Shown here: positions 2,118 to 36,430 of the stretch, in pieces
How the letters are laid out: each line of letters starts with the position of its first letter
How positions within the stretch are numbered: position 1 is the stretch's first letter
Origin: Armatimonadota bacterium
Lineage (GTDB): Bacteria > Bacteroidota > Ignavibacteria > OLB7
Direction of reading: 5' to 3'
Assembly (NCBI GenBank): GCA_020850315.1
Contig: JADZEY010000042.1
Coordinates: 1-50,175 of the forward strand
DNA: 50,175 nt
Translations under genes and position numbers: made by a program
The notes under the pieces: model-generated
What the model was told of the DNA's origin: nothing
Database searches by the model: none
The model's input: only the letters and a program-made list of their open reading frames with translations

Positions 2118-4910
2118 ATGCTACACGCCTTTGCACGTTCTGCCACTTCCGCAACGCTTGCGCTGTTGCAAACCAAACTCTACGTGCCGCGCCCGCAGCC
2201 AAACCTTGTGGAGCGTGGCCGGCTGATTTCGTTGTTAGATCAAGGGGTAAGCAACCGCCTAACGTTGGTTTCGGCACCGCCGGGATTTGGCAAAACCACG
2301 TTGGTCAGCGAATGGGTTTGGCGCACCGAGCGGATGGTGGCATGGGTAAGTTTAGACGAAGGGGATAACGATCTGCGCCGATTTCTCCGCTACGTTGCTG
2401 CCGCGTTGAACCGTTTGGATGAGCGGATTGGAGCCACCGCGCTGGGGTTGCTGCAATCGCCACAAGGAACTTCCGAAGGGGTGCTGACCACGCTGCTGAA
2501 CGACGTTCTGGAGGTCAACATCCAAGCCGTGTTGGTGCTGGACGATTACCACATAATTGACGCTGCCGAGGTTCACGACGCGGTGTTGTTCATGCTGGAT
2601 CACCTTCCTGATGAATGCCACATCATCCTTACCAGTCGTGTGGATCCACCGCTACCGTTGGCACGGTTGCGTGGCCGCCGCCAGCTTACGGAGGTACGCT
2701 CGGGCGATCTTCGGTTTGCCCCCGATGAAGCCGCTGCATTTTTGAACGCAGTAATGGGATTGAACCTTGAGGCTGCCGATGTTGACGCGCTGGAATCGCG
2801 AACCGAAGGGTGGATTGCCGGATTGCAGCTTGCTGCATTATCGGTGAAAAATCGCGACGACGCTTCCGGATTCATCCAAGCCTTCACCGGAAGCCACCGC
2901 CATGTTGTGGATTACCTTGCCGACGAAGTGCTGCACCGCCAGCCGGAATCGGTGCAACAATTTCTGGTGGAAACCTCCATCCTGGATCGGCTGGCAGGAA
3001 ACCTTTGCGATGCCGTGACCACCACTGAAGGGGGGATTGGGCGGCTGCGGATGCTGGAAGACGCAAACCTGTTTATTGTGCCGCTGGACGAAGCGCGCTA
3101 CTGGTATCGCTACCACCATCTGTTTGCCGATTTTTTGCGGGCGCGGCTTGTTTCCGATTCGCCGGGGGCTATCCCAGAACTCCATCGCCGCGCTGCCGAT
3201 TGGTATCAAACAGAAGGTTTGCTGACCGAGGCAATCCGCCACTTCCTTGCTGCCGATGATGTTGCCGCCGCCTCCAGAATCGTTCTTCGCCATGGCCCCG
3301 GAAAATTGGTCAGAAGTGAGCTTTCGCTGCTGCTGTTGTGGTATCGGATGCTTCCGGAATGGGCCATTGAGCAGAACGTTGGGCTTTCGGTGATCTATGC
3401 TTGGGTGCTGATCTTCACGGGGCAAATCTCCAAAGTTCCGAAACGAATCAGCGATAGCGAGCAGGCACTGGCCAGCGGCGCGCCGGACGAACAGGGAATG
3501 TACGCCGGGCATATCGTTGCCATTCACTCCTTCATGGCACGGATTAATGGCAATGCCGAGCGGGGGATTGCGCTGGCACTGGAAGCCCTTACCATCCTTC
3601 CTATCGAACAACTTGGCGTGCGCGGCGCGGTGAAGCTGAACCTTGCGCTGGGATACCTGATGCAACGGAATGTGGAGCGGGCGCGCGCTTCCTGCTTGGA
3701 GGCACTTCCGCTCAGTATGTCGGCACGTCACCCCTATGCTGCGCTGGCTTCGATACGGCTGTTGGAGCGGTTGGAGGTGATTCATGGAAAACTGCATCAG
3801 GCAATGGAATGGTGCCGCCAGGGATTGGAGCTTGCACGGCACGAGGCTGGCGAGGAAACCGGGCATTTATCCACAGCCGTTGTTCATTTAAGCATTGGGG
3901 AGTTGGAGTATGAGTGGAATAATATCCAACAAGCCAAAACTCACTTAGGCGAAGGACTCCGGTTGGCGGAACTAAGCGGCGATGTGCTAACCCAACGCGA
4001 CGGCTACGTTGCCGCAGCACGCTTGCAGCACGCCAATGGCGACGACGAAGGCGCGCTGGAAACACTGGCCAAAGCCGATGAGCTTGCCCACCGGTACAGC
4101 GTTCCCGATTGGATACGTTCGCCGCTGGCAACCTTCCGCACACGGCTCCATCTGGAGCGGGGTGAGCTTGATGCCGCCGCCGCGTGGATGCAGGAGAAAC
4201 GCCCACGGCTGGAACGCTACCCCAGCGATGGATGGCAACTAAGCGGCTGGACCGATTACAGCGAAATTGAACGGCGAACCGTGGCTCGCGTGCTGATTGC
4301 CCTGGGGGAAACAACGGAAGCTCTGTCAATCCTTTCCGAACTTGCCCAGCTTGCCGAATCGGAAGCACGCAACGGCAATCTTATTGTGCTGCTGAACCTG
4401 ATGGCGATTGCACATTGCCGCAGGGGTGATGAACCACACGCATTGGTCTTGCTGGAACGCGCACTGCGGCTTGGCCAACCCGAACGCTACACCCGCACCT
4501 TTGTTGATGAAGGCACGGCGTTGCGCGGATTGCTGCTGCGGCTACGGAAAAAATTGGTGGGTCGCGGTGAAAACCAGGGAGGGGGCGATGGACGAATAGT
4601 GGAGTATGTGGATCGGCTGTTGGGAGCATTCCCCACGCCGCACCACAATGCCGACGGCGCGGTCCACACAACGTCGCAGCCAATGCCAGCAAACCGAACC
4701 GCGCTTTTCCTGCTGGATCCGCTTAGCCAACGTGAGCTGGAGGTGCTGCGGCTGGTGGCGGCGGGGAACTCCAACCGCCAGATTGCCGAGCAGTTGTTTG
4801 TGGCCCCGGGGACTGTCAAACGGCATATCCACAACATCCACGAAAAATTGGGGGTGGACAGCCGAACAAGGGCAATCGCCAAAGCGCGCGAGCTGGGGGT
4901 GATTGGGTAG
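2118..4910 (+). CDS. LuxR-family ATP-binding regulator (MalT/LAL type)
   Basis: 930-residue transcriptional regulator of the MalT/AlkS class (large ATP-binding LuxR regulators). The N-terminus LLQTKLYVPRPQPNLVERG is the family hallmark; the Walker A motif APPGFGKTT is at about 53-61 and Walker B VLVLDDYH near 138-145. A long helical/TPR-like sensor region follows (about 350-820). The C-terminal LuxR helix-turn-helix, from LSQRELEVLRLVAAGNSNRQ to the end, binds DNA. In this family an inducer plus ATP drives oligomerisation and promoter activation. The divergent aldehyde dehydrogenase is the natural candidate target, but the inducer is unknown. Length is typical for the family. Confidence 0.93.
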   Translation: MLHAFARSATSATLALLQTKLYVPRPQPNLVERGRLISLLDQGVSNRLTLVSAPPGFGKTTLVSEWVWRTERMVAWVSLDEGDNDLRRFLRYVAAALNRLDERIGATALGLLQSPQGTSEGVLTTLLNDVLEVNIQAVLVLDDYHIIDAAEVHDAVLFMLDHLPDECHIILTSRVDPPLPLARLRGRRQLTEVRSGDLRFAPDEAAAFLNAVMGLNLEAADVDALESRTEGWIAGLQLAALSVKNRDDASGFIQAFTGSHRHVVDYLADEVLHRQPESVQQFLVETSILDRLAGNLCDAVTTTEGGIGRLRMLEDANLFIVPLDEARYWYRYHHLFADFLRARLVSDSPGAIPELHRRAADWYQTEGLLTEAIRHFLAADDVAAASRIVLRHGPGKLVRSELSLLLLWYRMLPEWAIEQNVGLSVIYAWVLIFTGQISKVPKRISDSEQALASGAPDEQGMYAGHIVAIHSFMARINGNAERGIALALEALTILPIEQLGVRGAVKLNLALGYLMQRNVERARASCLEALPLSMSARHPYAALASIRLLERLEVIHGKLHQAMEWCRQGLELARHEAGEETGHLSTAVVHLSIGELEYEWNNIQQAKTHLGEGLRLAELSGDVLTQRDGYVAAARLQHANGDDEGALETLAKADELAHRYSVPDWIRSPLATFRTRLHLERGELDAAAAWMQEKRPRLERYPSDGWQLSGWTDYSEIERRTVARVLIALGETTEALSILSELAQLAESEARNGNLIVLLNLMAIAHCRRGDEPHALVLLERALRLGQPERYTRTFVDEGTALRGLLLRLRKKLVGRGENQGGGDGRIVEYVDRLLGAFPTPHHNADGAVHTTSQPMPANRTALFLLDPLSQRELEVLRLVAAGNSNRQIAEQLFVAPGTVKRHIHNIHEKLGVDSRTRAIAKARELGVIG

Positions 4911-7230: not shown

Positions 7231-8919
7231 TTAGTTGAAGATGTTAAACGAGCGGCTGTACCGCAGCGATGTGCTGAACTCCGTAAAACTCACCGCGCCT
7301 GGCATGGTGTTTCCGTTGGTTGTGGCGTTGAAGCTCACGTTGATGTTGTCCTCCTTCGTCAGTTGATAGGTGCTGCCGATGTTCAGGGCGATGGTGCTGC
7401 TTGCTCCGTCCATGCCAACCACCGATGAGGTGGAGTAGCTGAGGGTTCCGTTCAAGCTGAGTTCGTCGTTGGCCAGCATGGTTACTGCGCCGTTCAGCGA
7501 TGCGCTGAGGGTGTTGGTGGTGGCAAGCCCCGATTTGGTGTTGGCATACACCAGCGACCCACCAACGTTCGTTTTGCTTTTCAGGAACGCCATGTTGTAG
7601 CTGGCCACAGCCGTCAGGGCTTGGTTATCGCTAAGCGCGCTGGTGAAAGCGTTCAGGTCACTGTATTCTTGGTATCCTGTGGAAAGGGTTACGGTCTGGC
7701 TTCGCTCTTCGGTCTGCATTGTCAGGCGTGGGGTCAGTGTGGCACTTTGCATGATGTTCCGTGCGCGGATGCTATCGCTGATTGGGGCGCGGCCCGCTTT
7801 CTGGTTGGTGGAGTAGTTGCTGTAGCTGGCATCAACCCCCCAATCGCTGCTGTTGAAGCCAGCGTTGAACGACCCGATCACCCGCTCGGTTTGGGCCAAT
7901 TTGTTCCCCAGCACGTTGTCGCTTTGCAAACCGACCGCACCGCTTAGGCGCAACGCACTGTTCAGCAAGTTCAGGCTTGGGGCGATAGTCCAGTTGCTGA
8001 TGTCGGTGGTGAAGCTGTACGCGCCCAGCGTTGCATAATCTGGCTCAACATATTCGTAGCCAATACGCACGCCGTAATCGCTTTCAGTCCAGGAGACCCC
8101 AAGCCGCCCGGCCATTGTGAAGGAGGTGGAAACCCGTGGCTGATAGATGCTGGTTAAAAAATCGGGGATGCTGCTGGCCGAGTCAACGTCCACAGTGGCG
8201 GCGCGCAGGTTGCTGGTGTACAGGCTTGCCCCCCCCTCGGCTTCGATAGCAATGCTGTTGGTAATGCCAAACCGCATGGTTCCACCAAGTGCCGAATTCT
8301 CCGCTGGGGCGTCACCTCTGGTTGGGGTTTTCCGCAGGGAGTTGGTGTCGTCGGCGGCATGAAGGTAGCTGGCTTCAAAGAAGGTGCGCTCGCTGCCAAA
8401 TCCCAATTTCACGGCGTACCCATTCCGCTGGTAGCTTGGGATTGCGCCGCCGTTCAACGTGTCCTCCTCAATCGCTTCTTTGAACCGCCCCACCATTGCC
8501 GCGCTCCGCACTGGCCCAGCGTTGAACTCCATCCCACCTCCAAAAAATGTTGTGCCGGACATGATGTAGCGTGAGAAACTCATGGAGCGGTAGCCGAGAT
8601 GTGTCCGCAAAGATTTATAGCTGGGTGAGATGCCGAACTGATTGAACGGCTGGGTGTAGCTTTTGCTTTGGCTGGAGAAGATGAACGAGAAGGGAAGTTG
8701 CACGCCGTACAACGCTGGTGTCAGCGACCCACCCACCGTCCAGCTGAACGGATCCTGGCGGCGGGGCGCGCCGCTGATGGTGCTGGCGGTCAGGTTGGTG
8801 TTCACCGACCCACCCATTGTGAACGGTTTCTGCTCGCCAATCGTCGAAAGCTCCTGCCCAACGGCGGCTGCGGTTGCAAGGATTGTCCAGATCATCAGAG
8901 AGAGTACCAAGCGGTTCAT
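7231..8919 (-). CDS. Outer-membrane beta-barrel protein, paralogue A of the surface locus
   Basis: 562 residues from the ATG at 8917-8919 (MNRLVLSLMIWTILATAAAVGQ, a signal peptide cleaved after about residue 22), preceded by GGTGAG as a possible ribosome site; a second ATG lies four codons upstream. The mature part is an almost continuous run of alternating hydrophobic/polar strands rich in Ser, Thr, Asn and Tyr, ending in SLRYSRSFNIFN, as expected of a large outer-membrane barrel. It is homologous to the gene at 18353-20251: both share an N-terminal PFxF/PFN strand pair, an FGGG(I/M)(D/E) block and a segment with DDT(T/N)S(I/L). No named family is recognised. It is the last gene of the minus-strand surface locus. 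Confidence 0.75.
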   Translation of the reverse strand: MNRLVLSLMIWTILATAAAVGQELSTIGEQKPFTMGGSVNTNLTASTISGAPRRQDPFSWTVGGSLTPALYGVQLPFSFIFSSQSKSYTQPFNQFGISPSYKSLRTHLGYRSMSFSRYIMSGTTFFGGGMEFNAGPVRSAAMVGRFKEAIEEDTLNGGAIPSYQRNGYAVKLGFGSERTFFEASYLHAADDTNSLRKTPTRGDAPAENSALGGTMRFGITNSIAIEAEGGASLYTSNLRAATVDVDSASSIPDFLTSIYQPRVSTSFTMAGRLGVSWTESDYGVRIGYEYVEPDYATLGAYSFTTDISNWTIAPSLNLLNSALRLSGAVGLQSDNVLGNKLAQTERVIGSFNAGFNSSDWGVDASYSNYSTNQKAGRAPISDSIRARNIMQSATLTPRLTMQTEERSQTVTLSTGYQEYSDLNAFTSALSDNQALTAVASYNMAFLKSKTNVGGSLVYANTKSGLATTNTLSASLNGAVTMLANDELSLNGTLSYSTSSVVGMDGASSTIALNIGSTYQLTKEDNINVSFNATTNGNTMPGAVSFTEFSTSLRYSRSFNIFN

Positions 8920-9194
8920 GTTGCTCACCATTCAGTTTGAATTGCGGAGGGTTGCCCTACGCCATTCAAGGTACGCGCCCGATGCCAAGATTTACGGCAG
9001 CATATGCCAAGATTGAAATGGGGTGAAATTTTTTCGAAAAAACTCCATCCACAAAACAAGAACCACCCAGAAGGTGGCCGCATGAAGCCCAAAAAAACAT
9101 CTCGGTTGTGGCATTCTCCCCATGCTTCCCGCTGCGCAGCTAACTGACAGTGAAAAAATGGTGTTCATGGGAGGATCGTAAATGTATCCTCGCC
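8920..9194. other. Upstream region of barrel A; no gene seen
   Basis: No credible coding frame. A weak half-match (TTTACG at 8991) to the element shared by the other three surface-locus genes lies at the same 72-bp distance from the start codon, but its partner half is missing. The stretch 9029-9060 is A/T-rich. Confidence 0.4.
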
Positions 9195-9966: not shown

Positions 9967-10095
9967 GGTTAGTGGTCAGTTGTCAGTGGGCAGTTGCAAA
10001 GAAAGGGAGTGCGTTATTAGTCATTGGTCATTAGTGAAGAGAACAAGGATTCTTATTATTTCACTCTTCACTCTTCCCCTTTCACTCTTCCCCCT
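9967..10095. repeat. Degenerate heptanucleotide repeats
   Basis: Four 7-bp units GGTTAGT/GGTCAGT/TGTCAGT/GGGCAGT (9967-9994), three TTAGTCA-type units (10017-10037) and TTCACTC units from 10060. This cluster fills the space between the convergent acetyltransferase and FN3 genes and ends at the FN3 stop codon. Confidence 0.75.
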
Positions 10096-12131
10096 CACGG
10101 TAGCTCGTACATCAGCTCGGCGCGGTCAAGGCTTTCGCGGCCGTTGCGGTCAATGGCGGCTACGGAGTAGAAGTAAATTTTTCCCCGCTCGATTGTTTGG
10201 TCGTCGAACGTTCTGGTGTCGGCTGGGAGCGGTGTTTCGGAAATCCGCTCGGCTTTTTCTGTGCCGGTTTTCCGGTAGATCACGTACCCGCTCACCCGAT
10301 CATCCAACGCTGGATCCCATTCCAATTTTGCGCCGCTGGACCCCTTTGTGGCCATTAAGCTGCCGGGCGGCGGCAATGGGCGCAGGTATCGGGTCATGGA
10401 TAAAAATTGCGTTGGATTCCCCTCAACTCCGTAATCGCTGATTGCACGGATGCGGTACAGATACTCTACATCCCCCTCGGCTGTGGAGTCGGTGAACGTC
10501 CCTGCCTCAGTTGGCAACACCGCCACACGCTCCCAACGCTCGGTTGCTGCCGGGGCGCGCTCGATAATGATGCTGTTGACGATGTTGTCCTCGGCTTCCC
10601 CCCAGAACAATCGGTTGCCGTATGGCTCGGACCAACCACGGAACGCAAGCGGGGCCAGCGGAAGCTCCTGAAGCTCGGGCCGGGCCGCCGTTGGAACGGA
10701 GTAGCGGCTGACAAACCCGGAGTAGTTTATGGCTTGCACCAGATACCAGTAGGTGGCCCGTGAGGAAAGATGTGAGTCGCTATCCTGATAGAAATTTGTG
10801 TCCTTGCTGATAAGCTGCGAGACCTGCGTAAGCTCGCCGTTCAGGCTTTCGGAGCGATAGACAAAGTAGCCTTGCAGGTCCGGTTCGTCGTTGGTGTCCC
10901 ACTCAATCCGCACCCCCTGCTGGTTGCCGGTTGCGGTAACGTACTGCGGCGGCAACGGCGGGCGGAAATTGCGGTAGTAGCCAATGGCGTGCGCGCTCTG
11001 TTCGGAACGGTTGCCAGCGCGGTCAATCGAAACCATGCGGTAGAAATACTGCATGTTCGGCAGTGCTTTCCGATCCTCGTACATCGTGTCGGTTGCTGGG
11101 ACGGCGGCATCGTTAATCTGCTGGAATAGTGAATCGGAGTTGGTGCTGCGGTAGATGTCGTAGCTGGCAAGGTCGTCGGCAACGGGGGGCTTCCACGTTA
11201 CCAAAATTCCAAGCCCCGATGGCTGCGCAACGATTGGCCCCGGCGGCAACGGTGCAACCTTATCGCTTGGGGTGGCCTTGATGATAACGCGGCGACTTTC
11301 GTTCCCAACAAAATCAACCGAAGCGACGGCGTACCAGTAGGTGTGGTCGTCAATCAATCCGGTGTCGGTGAACGCCCCCGTCCCTGGCTTCCCTTCAATG
11401 GCAATCATCAGAAGGTCACGGTGGTTCAGCTTGATGTAGTGGCTTGCCGAATCCACCGCCCGATAGATCCGGTAGGTGAACGCGCCGATGTCGGCCCCGT
11501 TTTGCTCCCACGTCACCTCCACTTTCCCTGGTTGCTCCAATGCCTTCACGTTGGCCGGCCCCAAGCCAGCCGAAGCGGGCGTGCCGTAGGTTGCCGCCAC
11601 CGGGTCGCTTCGCTTCGATTCATCCCCAGCCTTGTTGACAAAGGTGACGGAATACTCGTAGCGTTTCCCCGCCTCAACGTTGCGGTCGCGGTACAGCATC
11701 CCCAACACTTCCTGTAACTCCAGATTGAAGATTGATAGCTTCAGTGCCTGTTTGTTGTTTGCTTGGAACATCTTCCAGGCATCCTCGCGCGTTTTTTTAT
11801 CGAGCGCCAGCATAATCAAATCCAGCACATGGCCATGCTCACGCTCGGCTTCGGCAAGGGTGGCGGCGCGGCTTACGGGTTCGGCGTTAATCTTCCGGAA
11901 ATCGCTTTCCCCTTCGGCACGGCGGTAGATATTGAAGCCGATCCACCCTTTCCCCCCAACCGGCGCGCCGGGGTGATACAGCCGCGATTCGCCGAACAGA
12001 ATGACGTTTCCATCGGGGGAAGAAAACGCTTTTGCCCCGGGCGATTCCCCCTGGGCGTTGGCCGAAAACGGCAGCGCGGCAAGCAACAGCAGCAACAGAA
12101 CAGATGCGTGAATTGTGATGTTGAAGTTCAT
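10095..12131 (-). CDS. Secreted multi-FN3 protein of the surface locus
   Basis: 678 residues from the ATG at 12129-12131 (MNFNITIHASVLLLLLLAALPFSANA, signal peptide). An N-terminal region with a GWIGFNIYRR strand and a charged helical insert (about 50-180) is followed by about five fibronectin type III domains, each marked by a W/IxW strand, YxIYR and an Y(W/F)Y(A/S)V strand (for example KVEVTWEQ, GILVTWKP, GVRIEWDT, AKLEWDP). FN3 arrays are extracellular spacers or ligand modules. No catalytic motif and no obvious T9SS sorting tail are seen (it ends LDRAELMYELP). Its upstream TGTAGT/TGTAAT element is shared with the giant protein and barrel B. In Bacteroidota, FN3 proteins of this shape are found beside TANFOR-type proteins (from memory). 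Confidence 0.85.
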   Translation of the reverse strand: MNFNITIHASVLLLLLLAALPFSANAQGESPGAKAFSSPDGNVILFGESRLYHPGAPVGGKGWIGFNIYRRAEGESDFRKINAEPVSRAATLAEAEREHGHVLDLIMLALDKKTREDAWKMFQANNKQALKLSIFNLELQEVLGMLYRDRNVEAGKRYEYSVTFVNKAGDESKRSDPVAATYGTPASAGLGPANVKALEQPGKVEVTWEQNGADIGAFTYRIYRAVDSASHYIKLNHRDLLMIAIEGKPGTGAFTDTGLIDDHTYWYAVASVDFVGNESRRVIIKATPSDKVAPLPPGPIVAQPSGLGILVTWKPPVADDLASYDIYRSTNSDSLFQQINDAAVPATDTMYEDRKALPNMQYFYRMVSIDRAGNRSEQSAHAIGYYRNFRPPLPPQYVTATGNQQGVRIEWDTNDEPDLQGYFVYRSESLNGELTQVSQLISKDTNFYQDSDSHLSSRATYWYLVQAINYSGFVSRYSVPTAARPELQELPLAPLAFRGWSEPYGNRLFWGEAEDNIVNSIIIERAPAATERWERVAVLPTEAGTFTDSTAEGDVEYLYRIRAISDYGVEGNPTQFLSMTRYLRPLPPPGSLMATKGSSGAKLEWDPALDDRVSGYVIYRKTGTEKAERISETPLPADTRTFDDQTIERGKIYFYSVAAIDRNGRESLDRAELMYELP

Positions 12132-12210
12132 GACCCTTATGTGTGTCCCGGAGCAGAAGCTCAAGTGATTGTGATTGCTGATTGAACCTCTATCAATCTA
12201 TCCCGCAGTA

Positions 12211-12238
12211 ATTACAGAATGGGCGGTTGGGAACTACA
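12211..12238 (-). promoter_or_regulatory. Shared upstream element, copy A (FN3 gene)
   Basis: On the minus strand TGTAGT (12233-12238) and TGTAAT (12211-12216) separated by exactly 16 bp. The inner edge lies 80 bp before the FN3 start codon. The same pair with the same spacing precedes two other genes of the locus. It could be a -35/-10 pair (TGTAAT is one base from TATAAT) or a 22-bp-period direct-repeat operator. Confidence 0.65.
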
Positions 12239-12274
12239 GATGCGGAGTAGCTGGATCACCACACTGCGGTTTAC

Positions 12275-12330
12275 GGGTGAAACGCCGGGGGTGAAACGCC
12301 ACGGGTGAAACGCCACGGGTGAAACGCCGC
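12275..12330. repeat. 14-bp tandem repeat (4 copies)
   Basis: Four units of GGGTGAAACGCC plus a variable dinucleotide (GG, AC, AC, GC). The 14-bp period is twice the heptamer period seen elsewhere. It lies upstream of the FN3 gene and beyond the giant gene. Confidence 0.9.
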
Positions 12331-12354
12331 AGGTTCGCGGGGCTTATAACCACC

Positions 12355-12391
12355 AACGCCCGCAGCATCTTGGATGGATGCTGCGGGCGTT
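12355..12391 (-). terminator. Strong hairpin after the giant surface gene
   Basis: Perfect 15-bp stem AACGCCCGCAGCATC (12355-12369) / GATGCTGCGGGCGTT (12377-12391) with a 7-nt loop, 22 bp past the giant gene stop. There is no T-tract on the minus strand, so it may end transcription with Rho or protect the 3' end. Confidence 0.6.
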
Positions 12392-12413
12392 GTGCGTTTG
12401 GGTGCGTTGTGTG

Positions 12414-15400
12414 TTAATCGCAGCCCAGCGAGAAGTCGAACTCCCAGCCTTTGTTTCCGGCGTAGTCAACCACTGCGGTGATGCAGGGGCAGAACTTGCA
12501 GAGGTCGTCGCAGGAGCTGTTGGCATCGCAGGGCCAGATCCACGCTTTGGCGTTGAACTTGGCCTGGCCATGGAATTTCAGCAGGCTGTTCTTGTACTCG
12601 ATTGCCGCCTGCAGATCTATCGAAGCGGTGAAGCCAACCACCCACAGATCCAGCGCGGCGTTCCCGGCAATCTTGATGCCGCCGGCAAAGTTTCCATCCC
12701 AGTCAATCGCGCCGAACAGGTAGTAGCCGAACTCCAACTGGAAGATGTCGCCGCTCTTTCCAATCTTTGGATAGACCATGCTGGCATCCATGTGGAATCC
12801 GTTCAGCGTTTGGTTGTCGGGGTGGAACGTGACCGGCAGCGTGTGCTTGAATCCCTGGTAGTTCTTGCCAACGAACGCTTGCACTTGCAGCGCGGCAATC
12901 ATCGGGAAGGTGAAGGTTGCGCCGCCACCAACAAACCAATAGACCCCAGCCTTCACCTCGAAATCAATGAACGCTGTCAGCTTCACGCCGCTTTTGTTCA
13001 GCCCGAACTGCACCGACCCAGCAAAGCGTTTTTGTGGAATGTCAATCACAATGTGCGCTTCGCCAATCTGCACGCCCAGCGTTTTCAGCCACGCATCGCC
13101 TTGGATAATCGGGCCGTTCGGCGTGGTCTCCACCTGCACCTGGACCGTAAGCTCCATGGATTCTTTTCCGGCAGCGGTTGCCACCGATCCGCCGAAGCCA
13201 AACGCCCAGTATCCGTTGTTCCGCGCCAGCATCCCCGACACACCAGTGATTGCCACCGGACCAATCGGTATCGGCGGGATGTTCGCCGCAATTTTGATCT
13301 TCCAGTTGTTGCCGTCCTTGTAGTAGAATTCCCCCGCAACCGACAGCACCGGCTGCACCTCCAGCATACCGCTACCCCCAAACGCGGTGTCGCTCCATTG
13401 TGCTGACAGCGAGACCTTCACCGGCCCGGCATTGAAGCCGAAGCCGATCTTCTCGATTGAGAACGTTTTGTCCTCAAAGATTCGGACGTTCCCGGCTTGG
13501 ATGCTGAGCAATGGGATGCTGAAGGCAATCCCCCCTTTCACGAAGATGAATTTCTTCTGCTTGGCGGCATCGAACCCGAACTCGATGGACTGAAGATCGA
13601 ACGTCACCACGTTCATCAGCTTCACCGATTGGTTGAAGGCGATGGTTCCGTAGAAGCTGCCGGTGTCGTTGTAGATCAGGTTCTGGAACTCAATCGGTTT
13701 GCTTAACTGCGGTATCAACAGCTTTCCGCTGAAGGTGAAGTAATGGTTCTCCGGTTTTATCTGCCCCTGGTTTGGTCCGCTTTTTACGGTGTCGGCAGGA
13801 TTGGTCCCGAACCCAAGCATGGAGAGCGTAAACTGCGCGCCCAACACGTTGATCGGTGGTGTTCCCGGATCCATTTTCACCTGCACCCCCATGAACTTCC
13901 CTTCCTTGCTGATGAACATATTCTCGAACCGGAATTTCCGGTTGCCAAGTTTTGTCAGCACCACGTAGCCGCCAGCGATCAGCCCCTGCTGGTTCCATAT
14001 CGCCGAGGTGTCGGCAAACTTGAAGGCCTTCAGGTCAATCTCGAACGGTGTGCTCATATCCAGCTTCACTTGCTCGAACTGCAAGTCCATGGCCGCGGCA
14101 GTGCCGTGGTTTTTGAACTGGAGCATGGAGATTTTAATCGTCTTGTTGATCTTCGGAATCGTGAGCGACCCGACGTACTTGAAGCCGGTGGTGTCGAATG
14201 TGGTTTTGGTGTAGTCAACGGCCACTTTGAAACCCCACATATTCACCTCCACTTCGTTGCTTGTCACCTTGAAGACCGTTCCGCCGTGGAAGGCACCATC
14301 GCCCCAGAACCCAAGCGATTTGGAGTAGGCACCGGCTGCGGTTGCGCCATCGCTCAACTTCTCGGGAATCCATTGCGAACCCGGAAGGATTTTTGGAATG
14401 AACGGCAGCAACTGAAGCTCCTTCCCGCGGATTGCTCCGGTTTTCAGCACCGTGTCGTACTCCACTTTCAGGAAGTCTTCGCCGCCGGAAAGCTTTGCAT
14501 CCAACGCTGTGAAGATGCTTACCGGCATTTCGCTGTAGGGGAAGTAGTAGGCCACCGCCACCGGCTTCATGGTGGTTCCGTCAACCTCCAAGTTGTCGAA
14601 CTTGAACTCGAACGAGCTGTTCGATGTTCCCGCTTTGAACATCAGGTTATCCGGCACTTTGAACTTCCCTTTCAGATACTTGTTCCCCCCCTGCGCATCG
14701 GTGATGGTGTCCAGAATGATTGAGAACCCGTAGGCTGAGTCAATCGGGGAGTCGGCCAGGGAGAAGTCAACGTTCTTTTTCTGCTGCCCTTTCTGCAGCG
14801 GAAGCACCTCGGTTTTTCCCGAAATAAATTTTGGTTTGGAGACGCTCACGTTCAGCTTCACCCCGGTGGGGACGTTCCGCAGGACGTACTCGCCGGCGGC
14901 GTTGGTTTTTGCCGACACACCGGGGACACCAATCAGCGATACTGATGCCGAGTCAATCGGTCCGCCGCCAACTTGCTTTGTCACTTTGCCGTAAATCCGC
15001 GCACCCTGCACCATCTTGATTGTCAGCGGGGAGTTGAAGCCTTCGTTGATAACTTTGGTGGAACTGAAGGGCTTGTAGTCGGCCCCGCCGGCGGTGTCGG
15101 CAATCACAGAAACGTTCAGCTGTCCCAGCCCCAACCCCTTGAAGATTGCCAGCCCGGCCGCGTTGGTCTTCTCAGTTTTTCCGCCGATGCTCACGCTGGC
15201 GTTGGTCATGAAGTTTCCGGTTGCGCTATCCTTCACGGTGATGTTGATCTCGCCGTTTGGTTTTTTCAGATAGATCTTCACGGTCTTCGTCTGATCCTTT
15301 GTCACCGTCACCAGTGTTGATTGGTCAACATACATTGGATAGGATGCCACGATGTTCAGCTTCCCTGTTGGCACGTCTTCAATCAGCGTGCCGGTGATGG

Positions 15401-18092
15401 AGGTGACTGCCGAGATTGATGGAACGCTGTCGGAGCGGATGAATGCACCGTGGGCGTTGATGGTGTCGGCCCCGTTGATTGCAAAGACCGTCACGTGGAT
15501 TTTCCCTTTGTCGCGCGTTAGCTCGGCACTGACTGTCAGGTCGGTTCCGTTGGTGATGGCAATGGGTCCCGGTTTTTCCTGTGGTGCGTATCCGGTTGCC
15601 GAGAACTTGATTTTCACATAGTTCCCAAGTTTCACCGGATAGAGTGTGTAGGTTCCGTCCGGGTTGGTGTTGATGGTCATCACGGTGGTGTCCTTGTTGT
15701 TCACCTTCTTCACCAGTTCCACCTTCGCGTTGCCAACTGGCTTGTTTGCCAGCTTGTCGCGCACGACTCCGTGGATAAATCCTTTGGCGGAATCTTGCTT
15801 GATCGTGACCTCCTTTATTTCACCGTTCAGCGTAAGCCGCACTGGTTTCCACGCATCGATATAGCCAGCGGTGCGGACCCACACAGAGTAGCGGTCGGTG
15901 GGTTGGTCGGGGTCATTTGCCAGGATGTTGGTCAACGTCACTTTGCCGCTGGCATCGGTGATGCCGGTAGCGATTGGGGGGATGTCGGGCATTTTTTCGG
16001 GTGCCAGTGGTACGCCGCCACTGCCGCCGATTGGCACGCCCCATCCCGCCGATGCATCAATCCATCTGCCAGCCGACGCGCCCCCCCCGTAGCCACCCGA
16101 CTGCGCCCCTTGTGGATTGACCAATCCACCCGATGGCACATAAGCACCCCCGTACATCACGGTTTGGGCGTATGCTGCGTATTGACCTTGCATCGGCAAA
16201 TTCCCTGCCGAAGCGTTGTACCCGCCGTTAGAGTTCGCTTGGCCGCTTGGCGGCGCGGCAACGTTGGCTGGTGGGTTAGCTGCCACATCGGGGAACACTC
16301 GCACCGTTGCCCCAACCAATCCCTTGTTCGGGATTTTATCCAGCACCGTCACTTTAATCGTCCCGCGCTTCGCCTTCACTTTTATGCTACCGAGGTTGAT
16401 GGTATCGTTCGCCGTTGGGGTAACGTGGTAAATCTCCTCGGTCTGGTAGCGTGGGTGCTTGATTTTGATGAAGTAGTTATCCCACCACGGAAGGTTCTCC
16501 AGAACGAAGCTCCCGTTGTTCAGCACATAGAGTGAGTTGCCCCACAAGCGGAGCGGCATCACATTGATAACGCCCCCCTGTTGTGCGGCCGTATCGCCGC
16601 CGCCGAAGTCCATCGTTTTGGTGGAGGCAGCAAGGGTTGGGATAAGGTTGGCAGGGCCACCTTGTTGCCCAATCGGGCAAGCCGAGCACCAGCCGATTGG
16701 CCGCCGCCACAACTCCACCACAGCATTGCGGACGTTCTTCTTCGTCAGCAGATCCTCAACCAAACCAATCATGGCCATTGTGCGTGGCTGGACCAGCACC
16801 AGGTAGTTGTTGATGGCTGATTCGATTTTGTACTGCGGGCCAATCTGCGTCACGATTTTGAACCCGTTCTTCTTCACCGTCAGCATAAAGAAGGTTGGGG
16901 CCTTCACTGCTATAAATCTGAACTTGCCGTTGGGGTCGGTGACGGTAGTTAGTGGGGAACCATACGGCTGGAAGCCAAACAGCGTCTGCTTGGCGTAGCG
17001 GAACTCCACCGTTGCCATTGATAGAGGCAGGTTGGTGGTGGCGTTGCGAACTATGCCTTCGAACGGAAGGTCTTTCTTCGGTTGCCCTTCGTAGGGGTCC
17101 TGGAAATTGATCACAATTGGGCCAGTACCACTGGTGGTTCCGCCCCCCTGGTGTCCACCCGATGGCCAGCCTTTCCCACGGGTGGTGTCGGTCGGATTCC
17201 CTTGCTGGGTGATTGGCCCATGTGTGGTGTCGCTGCTGCCACCGCCACTTTTCACCGTGGTGAATGAGAATGGAGTGGCGTAGCCGTCCGGCTCGCCAAT
17301 CGGTTTGTTTTGTGCATCGTAGGCGCGAACGCTCCAGACAAACTGGGTTGCTGTTGCGGGGAACGGAACATCGGCCGGCCACAACATTTGGGTTGGAAGC
17401 GTGGCATCACGATTCAGAATTGGCTGGTTGCTTTTGAAGGCTTGCGCCGGGGTTTGCCCTTGCATCACTTGGAACACCACCACTTGATAACGAACTTTCC
17501 CGGTAGGAGTTGGGGTAACTGGAGTCCAATGGAATGTTGGCCGCACGTTGCTGTTCACTGTTGCTTTGTTGATTGGCAGCTGTAGCATTGGCGGCTGAAA
17601 ACTTGTCAGCAAAAATGACTTGCACGCCGGAAGCTCCACCAGTTTATTGGTGGGGCTGTTGGCCGCCAGAAGGCTGACGCAAAGCTGGTAATTGCCCGCC
17701 GGAAGCATCCCGGTTTTGATTGCCGTTTGATCCACCCCCCCCTGGAAACTAACGGCCCCGGCGGGGATAATCTGGTCGGCCAAAAATGTGCTAACCCCGG
17801 TGGGAATAGCGATGATTGGCATCGAGGCATATTTGGTATGCGCTTTCAATGCCCCGTCCAACGAAACCTGAGCATCAATCTTGGCCATTACCGTGCTTTG
17901 GCCACTGTTGATAACCGTCAGGATTGCTGTCTCCTTTTTCGATGACCAATCGGAAAGGTATGGGCTTGGCTTTGGTGCAATCGTCAGCGTCATCCGCAGC
18001 TGCGATTGTGCAACGGCAGCCGTAGCAACAAAAACCATTGCTGCTATCAGGAAGCCGAAGCGACGAGCGATGAAGTTCATAAAGTTCCTCAT
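12414..18092 (-). CDS. Giant TANFOR-like secreted surface protein
   Basis: 1892 residues from the ATG at 18090-18092 (MRNFMNFIARRFGFLIAAMVFVATAAVAQ, signal peptide); an upstream ATG at 18161 would overrun the shared promoter element. The N-terminal ~260 residues (TIAPKPSPYLSDWSSK, a LPAGNYQLCVSLL block and FxWxPVTP / FVWSVRAYD strands) match the TANFOR-type head of Bacteroidota surface proteins. Then come a Gly/Thr-rich linker and about seven carboxypeptidase-regulatory-like beta domains (G-x-V-x-D/N...A.V.l pattern) to about residue 1130. A ~750-residue beta-rich region follows, and a cysteine-rich end WPCDANSSCDDLCKFCPC. A G8 homopolymer (16081-16088) sits in a Gly-rich loop. Function unknown; adhesion or surface assembly is inference. 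Confidence 0.8.
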   Translation of the reverse strand: MRNFMNFIARRFGFLIAAMVFVATAAVAQSQLRMTLTIAPKPSPYLSDWSSKKETAILTVINSGQSTVMAKIDAQVSLDGALKAHTKYASMPIIAIPTGVSTFLADQIIPAGAVSFQGGVDQTAIKTGMLPAGNYQLCVSLLAANSPTNKLVELPACKSFLLTSFQPPMLQLPINKATVNSNVRPTFHWTPVTPTPTGKVRYQVVVFQVMQGQTPAQAFKSNQPILNRDATLPTQMLWPADVPFPATATQFVWSVRAYDAQNKPIGEPDGYATPFSFTTVKSGGGSSDTTHGPITQQGNPTDTTRGKGWPSGGHQGGGTTSGTGPIVINFQDPYEGQPKKDLPFEGIVRNATTNLPLSMATVEFRYAKQTLFGFQPYGSPLTTVTDPNGKFRFIAVKAPTFFMLTVKKNGFKIVTQIGPQYKIESAINNYLVLVQPRTMAMIGLVEDLLTKKNVRNAVVELWRRPIGWCSACPIGQQGGPANLIPTLAASTKTMDFGGGDTAAQQGGVINVMPLRLWGNSLYVLNNGSFVLENLPWWDNYFIKIKHPRYQTEEIYHVTPTANDTINLGSIKVKAKRGTIKVTVLDKIPNKGLVGATVRVFPDVAANPPANVAAPPSGQANSNGGYNASAGNLPMQGQYAAYAQTVMYGGAYVPSGGLVNPQGAQSGGYGGGASAGRWIDASAGWGVPIGGSGGVPLAPEKMPDIPPIATGITDASGKVTLTNILANDPDQPTDRYSVWVRTAGYIDAWKPVRLTLNGEIKEVTIKQDSAKGFIHGVVRDKLANKPVGNAKVELVKKVNNKDTTVMTINTNPDGTYTLYPVKLGNYVKIKFSATGYAPQEKPGPIAITNGTDLTVSAELTRDKGKIHVTVFAINGADTINAHGAFIRSDSVPSISAVTSITGTLIEDVPTGKLNIVASYPMYVDQSTLVTVTKDQTKTVKIYLKKPNGEINITVKDSATGNFMTNASVSIGGKTEKTNAAGLAIFKGLGLGQLNVSVIADTAGGADYKPFSSTKVINEGFNSPLTIKMVQGARIYGKVTKQVGGGPIDSASVSLIGVPGVSAKTNAAGEYVLRNVPTGVKLNVSVSKPKFISGKTEVLPLQKGQQKKNVDFSLADSPIDSAYGFSIILDTITDAQGGNKYLKGKFKVPDNLMFKAGTSNSSFEFKFDNLEVDGTTMKPVAVAYYFPYSEMPVSIFTALDAKLSGGEDFLKVEYDTVLKTGAIRGKELQLLPFIPKILPGSQWIPEKLSDGATAAGAYSKSLGFWGDGAFHGGTVFKVTSNEVEVNMWGFKVAVDYTKTTFDTTGFKYVGSLTIPKINKTIKISMLQFKNHGTAAAMDLQFEQVKLDMSTPFEIDLKAFKFADTSAIWNQQGLIAGGYVVLTKLGNRKFRFENMFISKEGKFMGVQVKMDPGTPPINVLGAQFTLSMLGFGTNPADTVKSGPNQGQIKPENHYFTFSGKLLIPQLSKPIEFQNLIYNDTGSFYGTIAFNQSVKLMNVVTFDLQSIEFGFDAAKQKKFIFVKGGIAFSIPLLSIQAGNVRIFEDKTFSIEKIGFGFNAGPVKVSLSAQWSDTAFGGSGMLEVQPVLSVAGEFYYKDGNNWKIKIAANIPPIPIGPVAITGVSGMLARNNGYWAFGFGGSVATAAGKESMELTVQVQVETTPNGPIIQGDAWLKTLGVQIGEAHIVIDIPQKRFAGSVQFGLNKSGVKLTAFIDFEVKAGVYWFVGGGATFTFPMIAALQVQAFVGKNYQGFKHTLPVTFHPDNQTLNGFHMDASMVYPKIGKSGDIFQLEFGYYLFGAIDWDGNFAGGIKIAGNAALDLWVVGFTASIDLQAAIEYKNSLLKFHGQAKFNAKAWIWPCDANSSCDDLCKFCPCITAVVDYAGNKGWEFDFSLGCD

Positions 18093-18163
18093 GTGTATTT
18101 GAGGCGGCGTTGTCGTGGTTGTGTCGGTTGTTTCTTTGCTTGCTATCAAGGTAATCAGCAAGG

Positions 18164-18191
18164 ATTACAGAAGCGGGGGGGAATAACTACA
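18164..18191 (-). promoter_or_regulatory. Shared upstream element, copy B (giant gene)
   Basis: Minus strand TGTAGT (18186-18191), 16 bp, TGTAAT (18164-18169); the inner edge is 72 bp before the start codon. A degenerate third half, GGTAGT (18210-18215), lies a further 24 bp upstream. Confidence 0.65.
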
Positions 18192-18222
18192 GAAGAGCAT
18201 TCCAGAGCAACTACCGAATAGC

Positions 18223-18259
18223 AAAAAGCCACTGCGGCTGTTTTGCGCGGTGGCTTTTT
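18223..18259 (-). terminator. Terminator of barrel B gene
   Basis: Arms AAAAAGCCAC (18223-18232) and GTGGCTTTTT (18250-18259), with further G-C pairs inside, give a hairpin followed by T5 on both strands. It separates barrel B from the giant gene, so the two are not one simple operon. Confidence 0.75.
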
Positions 18260-18343
18260 GGTCAGTGGTCAGTGGTCAGTGGTCAGTGGTGATTTTTCGC
18301 TCGTCATCTTCATCCTTCACCCTTCATCCTTCACCCTTCATCC
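18260..18343. repeat. Two heptanucleotide arrays
   Basis: Four GGTCAGT units (18260-18287) directly after the terminator T-tract, then five alternating TTCATCC/TTCACCC units (18309-18343) ending 10 bp before the barrel B stop codon. Confidence 0.9.
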
Positions 18344-18352
18344 GACATTCCA

Positions 18353-20251
18353 CTAAAACCGTGTTGAGAGTGAGGTCTGCAAGTAGTTTTCGGTGGCATC
18401 GCCAGCGGTGGTTCCGGTATAGGTGTTGCGGTCGGTGCTGGCGTTCAGGCTTAGGGTCATCCAATCGCTGGGGTCCCACTGCAAGCCAAGCCGTGCCGAG
18501 ATTCGTGTGTTCTCCTCGCTTCCGATGCTGCTCGCGCTCCAGCCCGCCGTCAGCGATGGGCGGAATCGTCCTTCAGCAAAAGCGTATCCAACGCCAACCG
18601 TCGCGCTGTTGATCGCCACATCGCTGAACGCCATTGCCTGCTGGGTGTTGTTGAATGCCACGGTGGTGTTCAGTGGAAATTCCTTCAAGGTCATTCCCCA
18701 GGTGGCGGCGATTGTTTGTGTTTGCGTGTTGTTCTCTGGGCCGGAGATGATGTTGTAATCGTTGTAGGTGTCCACGCCGAACGTGGCACTGAAGGTGTGG
18801 GTGGTCGTCTCGCCAGCCATCACGTAGGTTGGGGTGATGCTGTACGATTGGGTGACGTTGTGAATCCGGAACGTGTCCACGCGGTTGTTGGTGGTCATCC
18901 CCATGTTGTTGTAGTTGGCATCAATGCTCAACGCCTCCATCACTTGTGCCGAGATTGTGGCGGTTCCGATCAGTTGGTTGGAGGTTTCCGCTTTGGTGCC
19001 GGAAAGGTTGTTTGTCCGCTGGCCGATTGCGCCAGCGATGTTCAAACGATTCTCGAACAAGTTCAGCCGTGGGTTCACGGTGATGTCCTGGCGGTCGGAC
19101 TGCATCTGCGGGTAGCCAAGCGCAACAAATCCGGGGCCAATCAGCAGTGCTTTCACGGCAATCCCGTACTCCGGCCTGTTGAACCCGACCGACCCGCTAA
19201 GGGCGTAATCAATCCGCGAAGATATCCGCTGCTGCATCACGCTGCTTACCACAGGGATTTCATCCTGGATTGTTTCGGCACTCATGTCGCGGGTGAAGTT
19301 GGTGGTGGCGGCTTCACCCATGAAGGAGAAGCCTTCGCCAAATGGCACGCGGCAGCCGAACGAGAGCGAAGCCCCTTCGGTTGGGGTTGGCATAAGGTCG
19401 TGCCGGGTGAAGATCGGCGCGGGTTTCAGCAATATCGCCGAATCAATGGAGTCGGGAAGTTCAATTTGGACTTTTTGAAGAACGTTATGGATGCTTGTGG
19501 TGTCGTCCTGCATCCGCGCAATGCTCACCCCAAAACTGACTTGGCGTTCGTCGGTTTCGTCGCCGTAGCCGATGCGGGCAATGAAGGCGTTTTGCTGGTA
19601 GGCTCCACGCATCCCTTGTGCCGTATCTACCTCCACCCCACGCTGTGCAATCCCAGCCGAGGCGCTGAAACGGAATTTGCCGGGCCGCAGGTCAATCCCG
19701 CCGCCGAACACTTGAACATCGCCAAATGTTAGCTCCGAGTATGCCGGCGTGTGGCTGCCGATGTACAGCTGTGCCCATCCATACTTTGGGGCAATGCTGA
19801 TGGTGTTCATCTGGTTGGCCAGAAATTGCCCAACCGATTGCCCCTTGGCCCAGGGTGTGGTGACGTTGGTTTGCTGTGGCGAGACCATGATGTTGAACGG
19901 CAGCGTGAAAAATTCGCCGATACGCAGTTCGCTGTTCATCACAAGCCGGACGAACGATTCCGGCATCCGAGGGCGGAAGGTGGGTGAGGTGGCCGACCAA
20001 TCGTAGGCATCGGCACTTAGCGTTGCGTTTCCATCGAAGCGGATAAACGCAGGGCGCGGCTCATCTGGCGTTTCCGTTGTGGTGTCGGCTTCAAAGTGGT
20101 GGTGATCGCCGTGCGTCCCCTCGGCAGAATCGGGGGGTGTTTCGGTTTCCTGAGCCAGCATAACCGACGGAGTAATTCCGCTAACAACAAGCATCACTAG
20201 GATGCCGAACGCAGTGTGTAGAAGTCGTTGTGAAGTTGCTGCAATGCTCAT
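18353..20251 (-). CDS. Outer-membrane beta-barrel protein, paralogue B of the surface locus
   Basis: 632 residues from the ATG at 20249-20251 (MSIAATSQRLLHTAF..., signal peptide ending near SVMLAQ). A short acidic/His-rich segment (SAEGTHGDHHHFEADTT) follows the cleavage site and could bind metal. The rest is a long series of amphipathic strands ending in NYLQTSLSTRF, a terminal aromatic as in outer-membrane proteins. It is homologous to the gene at 7231-8919 (shared PFN strand, ISIAPKYGW, FGGGIDL and DDTTSI blocks). First gene of the surface locus, with its own TGTAGT/TGTAAT element 72 bp upstream and a terminator downstream. Not assigned to a named porin family. Confidence 0.75.
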   Translation of the reverse strand: MSIAATSQRLLHTAFGILVMLVVSGITPSVMLAQETETPPDSAEGTHGDHHHFEADTTTETPDEPRPAFIRFDGNATLSADAYDWSATSPTFRPRMPESFVRLVMNSELRIGEFFTLPFNIMVSPQQTNVTTPWAKGQSVGQFLANQMNTISIAPKYGWAQLYIGSHTPAYSELTFGDVQVFGGGIDLRPGKFRFSASAGIAQRGVEVDTAQGMRGAYQQNAFIARIGYGDETDERQVSFGVSIARMQDDTTSIHNVLQKVQIELPDSIDSAILLKPAPIFTRHDLMPTPTEGASLSFGCRVPFGEGFSFMGEAATTNFTRDMSAETIQDEIPVVSSVMQQRISSRIDYALSGSVGFNRPEYGIAVKALLIGPGFVALGYPQMQSDRQDITVNPRLNLFENRLNIAGAIGQRTNNLSGTKAETSNQLIGTATISAQVMEALSIDANYNNMGMTTNNRVDTFRIHNVTQSYSITPTYVMAGETTTHTFSATFGVDTYNDYNIISGPENNTQTQTIAATWGMTLKEFPLNTTVAFNNTQQAMAFSDVAINSATVGVGYAFAEGRFRPSLTAGWSASSIGSEENTRISARLGLQWDPSDWMTLSLNASTDRNTYTGTTAGDATENYLQTSLSTRF

Positions 20252-20517
20252 GGCTCTCGGTTTGGATAGTCGTTGCGTTGCGCCGTTGATTTTGGCGAAC
20301 AACAACAATCTATTCCCCCCCGATTACACTTGCCGCAAGGGGTGACTACAACAGAGGCCGGGGAGCGAATCCGACATCTCTGGCGCGGCTGGGCTTTTTT
20401 ATCATTTACACTTTATCCTTCTCCCTTTCCCCCGTAGGCTCTAAATTCGCGGCTTGCTGGGTTAGCCAAACTGGCCCAACGGCAAACATACATACTCAAC
20501 TTTCCCAGATCGTCATC
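20252..20517. other. Divergent intergenic region between barrel B and the lipoproteins
   Basis: No gene seen. It holds shared element C on the barrel side and a pyrimidine-rich stretch (20405-20440) on the lipoprotein side. The sequence before the lipoprotein ATG has no strong Shine-Dalgarno site. Confidence 0.6.
20323..20350 (-). promoter_or_regulatory. Shared upstream element, copy C (barrel B gene)
   Basis: Minus strand TGTAGT (20345-20350), 16 bp, TGTAAT (20323-20328); the inner edge is 72 bp before the start codon, the same distance as copy B. Confidence 0.65.
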
Positions 20518-35764: not shown

Positions 35765-36430
35765 ATGGCATGGTATCGCCAGATATTCCAGACAGCACCC
35801 GGCGAAGGGGTACAGGAATCGGGATCGCCGAAACCTACCAACCCGGACACGCTGACTTTTGAACGCTTCCTTGCCGGGGATGACTCGGCATTGGTGGAAC
35901 TGTATGACCGCCACAATCACCGGATTTTCTTGTATTGCCGGCAGTTTGTGCGCGACCATCAGCGGGCTGAAGATATGACCCAAGAACTGTGGGAACGGGT
36001 GATTCGCCTACGCCGCGAGCGGAAAGTGACATCGCAGAACCCCATGGGCTTTTTGCTGACGATTGCGCGAAACCTCTGCTTGGATGAGCTTCGGAAGGAT
36101 CGTCACCACTTGGCGATTGACGACTTGCCGGAAACAAGCCACCCGGTGGATACGATTCCAGAGCTTTCGCACATGGAGGAGTTGGTTGTGTTGGCGCTTC
36201 CCCACCTTCCTGCTTCGCAGCGTGAAGTGTTGGTGCTGAACGCCTACAGCGGCTATCGGTTCGATGAAATTGCCGAAATGCTTGGCGAGCCGGTCGGAGC
36301 GATTCGCACACGCGCTTGGCGGGCACGGACTCACTTGGCCCGGATGATCTCCGCCATGATCGGCATTGAAGAAGACAAAGAAAACAAGCAGACGACCAGA
36401 CCCCAAAACAGAAAGGAGCAAGGACAATGA
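35765..36430 (+). CDS. ECF sigma factor
   Basis: 221 residues. Region 2 (FLAGDDSALVELYDRHNHRIF to AEDMTQELWERVIR) binds core polymerase and the -10 element; a linker with NPMGFLLTIARNLCLDELRK follows, and region 4 (LPASQREVLVLNAYSGYRFDEIAEMLGEPVGAIRTRAWRART) reads the -35. An N-terminal ~25-residue extension and a polar tail are extra. Its stop overlaps the next start (ATGA), the usual arrangement of an ECF factor with its anti-sigma partner. Upstream 35584-35764 is pyrimidine-rich and holds its promoter, which I could not define. Confidence 0.93.
   Translation: MAWYRQIFQTAPGEGVQESGSPKPTNPDTLTFERFLAGDDSALVELYDRHNHRIFLYCRQFVRDHQRAEDMTQELWERVIRLRRERKVTSQNPMGFLLTIARNLCLDELRKDRHHLAIDDLPETSHPVDTIPELSHMEELVVLALPHLPASQREVLVLNAYSGYRFDEIAEMLGEPVGAIRTRAWRARTHLARMISAMIGIEEDKENKQTTRPQNRKEQGQ

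Follow-up and report, generated by a model that had tools for sequence, protein, structure and literature searches.

Three surface-protein genes on contig JADZEY010000042.1 of an uncultured, Chlorobiota-like bacterium (assembly GCA_020850315.1) are each preceded by the hexamers TGTAGT and TGTAAT, 16 bp apart. Are these genes under one control and, if so, which kind of regulator reads the element? We have defined as the window the whole stretch analyzed, 50,175 nucleotides in length, and we refer to the three genes as the FN3, giant and barrel-B genes.

The element before the FN3, giant and barrel-B genes

On the minus strand of the window, exact matches to TGTAGT-N16-TGTAAT were found at 12211-12238, 18164-18191 and 20323-20350, the start codons (ATGs at 12131, 18092 and 20251) being 80, 72 and 72 bp away, respectively. 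These positions, spacings and distances are exactly those given by the sequence-only reading that drew attention to the locus. Allowing up to one mismatch gave the same three matches only, against a mean of 0.10 in shuffled sequence. The whole genome (4.24 Mb, 138 contigs) contains four copies of TGTART-N16-TGTAAT, the three in the window and one on contig C87, and no match to the reversed pattern. In all four copies a TAnnTTG box (TAGATTG, TACCTTG, TAGATTG and TATCTTG) starts exactly 10 bp after the inner hexamer. Since this offset is fixed, we describe the element as a direct heptamer repeat of 22-bp period ending 9 bp before a putative -10 box, which favors the predicted direct-repeat operator of that period, one of the two possibilities raised from the sequence.

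A congeneric sister species (MAG-306, labelled Chlorobiota) has three matches and no more, each upstream of the ortholog of the FN3, giant or barrel-B gene, so that the element is kept at three of three genes. In the alignment of the two species, the upstream DNA had diverged and strong conservation ran from TGTAGT onward, with the 16-bp spacer drifting. Among 12 ortholog pairs of such elements, identity was 0.96 for the 5' heptamer, 1.00 for the 3' heptamer and 0.99 for TAnnTTG, compared to 0.80 and 0.82 for the spacers and 0.58 for the upstream DNA. The idea that the element is conserved signal is thus borne out, with repeats and -10 box kept and spacers drifting between species. The proposal of separately promoted genes also fits what we observed, as strong hairpins lie between barrel B and the giant gene and between the giant and FN3 genes, as expected for separate units (the second has no U run). 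The coordinates of all these features are given in Table 1.

Table 1. Predicted operators, putative -10 boxes, genes and hairpins in the window
Feature	Position	Strand	Basis
5' repeat TGTAGTT, FN3-gene predicted operator	12232..12238	-	exact match; conserved in sister species
3' repeat TGTAATT, FN3-gene predicted operator	12210..12216	-	exact match; conserved in sister species
Putative -10 box TAGATTG, FN3-gene promoter	12194..12200	-	same offset in all elements; 0.99 identity, 12 ortholog pairs
5' repeat TGTAGTT, giant-gene predicted operator	18185..18191	-	exact match; conserved in sister species
3' repeat TGTAATC, giant-gene predicted operator	18163..18169	-	exact match; conserved in sister species
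Putative -10 box TACCTTG, giant-gene promoter	18147..18153	-	fixed offset; ortholog-pair identity
5' repeat TGTAGTC, barrel-B predicted operator	20344..20350	-	exact match; conserved in sister species
3' repeat TGTAATC, barrel-B predicted operator	20322..20328	-	exact match; conserved in sister species
Putative -10 box TAGATTG, barrel-B promoter	20306..20312	-	fixed offset; ortholog-pair identity
5' repeat CTTGGCA, barrel-A predicted operator (second sequence class)	9005..9011	-	blind scan
3' repeat CTTGGCA, barrel-A predicted operator	8983..8989	-	blind scan
Putative -10 box TACCTTG, barrel-A promoter	8967..8973	-	blind scan; ortholog-pair identity
FN3-domain secreted protein, 678 aa, predicted controlled gene	10095..12131	-	
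Giant secreted protein, CarboxypepD_reg domains, predicted controlled gene	12414..18092	-	
Barrel B (name from the sequence-only reading), predicted controlled gene; no Pfam match; 13 tblastn-type genome matches	18353..20251	-	
Barrel A, 566 aa, homologous to barrel B	7231..8931	-	
Hairpin with flanking A/T runs, barrel B/giant gap, terminator-like	18218..18260	-	-20.5 kcal/mol, z -5.1
Strong hairpin, giant/FN3 gap, terminator-like, no U run	12350..12397	-	-36.6 kcal/mol, z -8.9

Barrel and giant genes stand as neighboring pairs in the window (barrel A, giant gene and barrel B in Table 1) and on contigs 15, 26, 30, 60, 124 and 138 of the genome, and the barrel genes and giant secreted proteins of these pairs have a common N-terminal region of ~300 aa. 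Our sequence comparisons suggest a barrel-plus-giant-partner surface system in this genome. Besides, short tandem words (GGATGAAGGGTGAA and CCACTGACCACTGA) are found between genes at 18258-18340 of the window and at loci L191 and L199, and the sister species and genome G002 have similar words. The window also encodes a MalT-like AAA/TPR/LuxR regulator (2118-4910), which has two relatives elsewhere in the genome, one of full length and one partial.

A class of elements defined by geometry

We scanned 135 kb of the genome (G000) blindly for any heptamer repeated upstream of TAnnTTG, leaving the word itself unspecified. Period 22 gave six cases, while each other period gave none or one. A second word, CTTGGCA, was found in this way before barrel A (8967-9011), and three further places in the genome carry the CTTGGCA element, all of them with a sister-species counterpart. 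Further words were CGTAAGA, CGTGACG, CGTSACC, GATAATC, TGCAACC, TGTAAGC, TGAATCG and TGTGGCC, all with a 22-bp period and the same distance to TA, in loci chosen for their nearness to barrel genes or to genes of SARPs (the type of activator that turns on antibiotic genes in actinomycetes, such as Streptomyces) and thus not a random sample of the genome. In a period-by-offset table of noncoding DNA with TA..TT, the combination (22,16) was joint top in G000 and sole top in G001; with the looser TA...T it was not top, and the table was uninformative in G002 and G004 together. Outside the genus, in the wider class searched, matches to the TGTART and CTTGGCA patterns hardly rose, if at all, above the control level, so that by sequence search both words look specific to the genus.

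The first genes behind the elements mostly encode surface or secreted proteins, or a four-CxxC protein of ~75-110 aa that corresponds to a double zinc ribbon (the C87 copy matches Pfam DZR) and is followed at several loci by a secreted or fibre-like gene. This zinc-ribbon protein comes first behind a SARP-type operator repeatedly (L014:9505-9840, L178, L211, L247, L249, L199, L201, L206, L208 and L277), mostly in loci with a SARP, one of them in another family (G106). On C87, two tandem promoter-like elements with the TGTAATC and CTTGGCA words (L014:9216-9450, that is, G000:C87:39215-39450) lie divergent from a SARP gene, and both precede the same zinc-ribbon and fibre genes. The latter (L014:9930-15929) encodes a 1,999-aa secreted protein with a partial match, below the curated cut-off, to the N-domain of Bdellovibrio mosaic adhesive trimer fibres.

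Regulators beside the elements

BTAD-domain proteins adjoin the sites in four genomes (G002 contigs 24 and 34, G004 contig 9, G001 contig 73 and G000 contig 87), the regulator on G000 contig 87 being a divergent frame of 1,221 aa. These proteins, of ~1,100 aa, show an AAA/STAND region with 'FLNHG.LPF.GR' at the N-terminus, then a long central part and, in the last ~240 residues, a winged helix followed by BTAD. When a profile of 16 C-termini was compared with solved structures, the best match was AfsR (residues 37-257, E = 1.1e-6), with EmbR weaker; the AfsR match covers the whole SARP domain, the OmpR-like winged helix and then BTAD. Pfam BTAD was present in 16 of the 16 profile members, and Trans_reg_C, with marginal scores, in two. 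Judged by these profiles, the C-terminal domain of the regulators is a SARP domain. With at most 22 candidates scored, the genome encodes at least 19 of them plus one longer relative; we found 19 matches in the sister species and seven and six in two other genomes of its family, whereas elsewhere in the class or phylum they were very few. The openly available literature yielded nothing relevant on SARPs outside actinomycetes, which does not by itself prove their absence.

Upstream of 51 SARP genes, a set that includes orthologs and is therefore not fully independent, ten loci carried a heptamer repeat (6 of 7) plus TA..TT at period 22 on the divergent strand. Other periods gave 0 to 2 loci, and the opposite strand gave none at period 22. 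Many of the 51 loci showed no such element nearby. As SARP genes are absent from the window and from 80 kb of the sister contig, any such control of the window genes would have to act in trans. Among the SARPs of this genome, only that on C87 shows TGTAATC at the divergent promoter of its own gene and, because a CTTGGCA box is found there too, it is not assignable. Regarding DNA recognition, the distance between recognition helices and that between boxes showed no overall correlation (Mantel r = -0.01). Grouped post hoc and by eye, helix NFAVFRLRE went with box GATAAT, NL[AT]VHRLR with GCAAYC, xG[IL]LRLRE with CGTGAC and NMA[IV]A[SGA]LR with TTGGC. As this rule failed at further loci (C106/C126, G022, C36, C26 and G002:C70b, all without the expected box), we do not claim a helix-to-box recognition code.

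One could argue, as the sequence-only reading did, for an alternative (ECF) sigma factor, for instance the product of the ECF-type gene present in the window (35765-36430), with one hexamer serving as its -35 and the other as its -10. The 16-bp spacing indeed fits such a pair. Yet an ECF promoter has distinct -35 and -10 motifs, and here the hexamers are nearly copies of one word, with a separate -10-like TAnnTTG at a fixed distance. Besides, both copies change together in the sister elements (CTTGGCA, CGTAAGA, CGTGACG, GATAATC and TGCAACC), with period 22 kept and TAnnTT beyond. We consider a sigma factor very unlikely, since two separate sigma contacts would not co-vary in this way, and nothing connects the ECF gene to the element. 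The same reading had also named LytTR-type regulators. These bind direct repeats of about 22-bp period (about two turns), a period like that of our elements. The family, however, is nearly absent here: the genome has two LytTR genes (C53 and C127), on contigs in which no site was found and too few for about ten repeat sequences, and the regulators that adjoin the sites are SARPs instead. A LytTR protein is accordingly a most improbable reader.

Two other regulators could be put forward. The MalT-like LuxR-family protein might bind the repeats, being encoded in the window and having an ortholog near barrel A in the sister species; that ortholog, however, is on a different contig from the three genes, so the regulator and these genes do not stay together. 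It has, moreover, only three matches in the genome, one of them partial, and the other element-bearing loci that we examined have SARPs beside them or no regulator. We hold its involvement to be scarcely plausible. Another activator with the same repeat geometry could also bind the window elements, with SARPs binding similar elements elsewhere, and the lack of SARP genes near the window genes would agree with it. Nevertheless, on C87, and likewise in the sister copy on C73, a TGTAATC element with identical -10 spacing adjoins a SARP gene, and we give such an activator very little credence.

A probable SARP-type operator grammar and its known counterparts

The shared geometry, the neighboring BTAD/AfsR-like regulators and a published rule for the spacing of repeats and -10 point to SARP-type sites. 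Our preferred reading, with a probability of about 0.83, is that each element consists of a predicted operator for a SARP-type activator and a -10 box, and that the FN3, giant and barrel-B genes are under one trans-acting SARP. The sequence evidence covers the geometry of the elements, their conservation, and their association with surface genes and SARP genes; from it we infer binding, activation and polymerase recruitment at the elements. According to this model, TGTAGTY and TGTAATY, two helical turns apart, would occupy the place of the -35 and end 9 bp before TAnnTT(G); setting the -10 at -12 to -7 places the 5' repeat near -50 to -44 and the 3' repeat near -28 to -22. A SARP (OmpR-like winged helix plus BTAD) would bind the repeats and recruit the housekeeping RNA polymerase to a promoter that lacks a good -35. 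One trans-acting member of the genome's STAND-SARP family would co-activate the FN3, giant and barrel-B genes, and a SARP with a different specificity would act on barrel A.

More broadly, this uncultured bacterium appears, from its gene content and elements, to use about twenty SARP-type regulators to control cell-surface proteins. It is conceivable, though we put it forward tentatively and at somewhat less than even odds, that the ~twenty STAND-SARPs per genome, each with its own heptamer in the same 22-bp/9-bp geometry, split the surface repertoire into switchable modules, with the four-CxxC zinc-ribbon protein as a partner or feedback regulator. The predicted occurrence of SARP operator grammar in a distant phylum, with other DNA words and serving surface and secreted proteins, would offer a handle on surface control in an uncultured lineage. 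The regulators form a large lineage-specific family with reversed domain order and, together with their predicted operators, would make a natural set of paralogous pairs for working out SARP DNA recognition.

Among known systems, LytTR operators share with our elements the direct repeats of about two turns. The closer likeness is to the Streptomyces SARP operators (AfsR/afsS; ActII-ORF4, DnrI), with 22-bp direct repeats over the -35 region and the 3' repeat near the -10. By the published rule, the direct repeats of SARP targets recur at 11 or 22 bp, and 8 bp separate the 3' repeat from the -10 (PMC10936776); here the period is 22 bp at all sites, only this form stood out, and 9 bp lie between the heptamer and TAnnTT. 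In afsS, the afs box is centered at -29.5 and its upstream repeat lies at -40 to -30 (PMC10936776), so the 3' heptamers of the window, at -28 to -22, fall inside the position of the 3' afs repeat. In Streptomyces, cognate regulators are often beside their targets, and SARP genes are likewise beside many of the sites described here. The differences lie in the phylum, in the heptamers (such as TGTAATC and CTTGGCA) and in the targets, which are antibiotic clusters in Streptomyces but here, for the most part, proteins of the surface or secreted ones, along with small zinc-ribbon proteins. As in the large SARPs (AfsR, with a SARP-NOD-TPR layout, or SARP-LAL proteins such as PimR), winged helix and BTAD are joined to an AAA/STAND module and helical repeats. 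However, the SARP domain is N-terminal in AfsR-like large SARPs, whereas in our regulators the order is reversed, with the AAA module at the N-terminus and the winged helix and BTAD at the C-terminus, and about twenty paralogs are found per genome.
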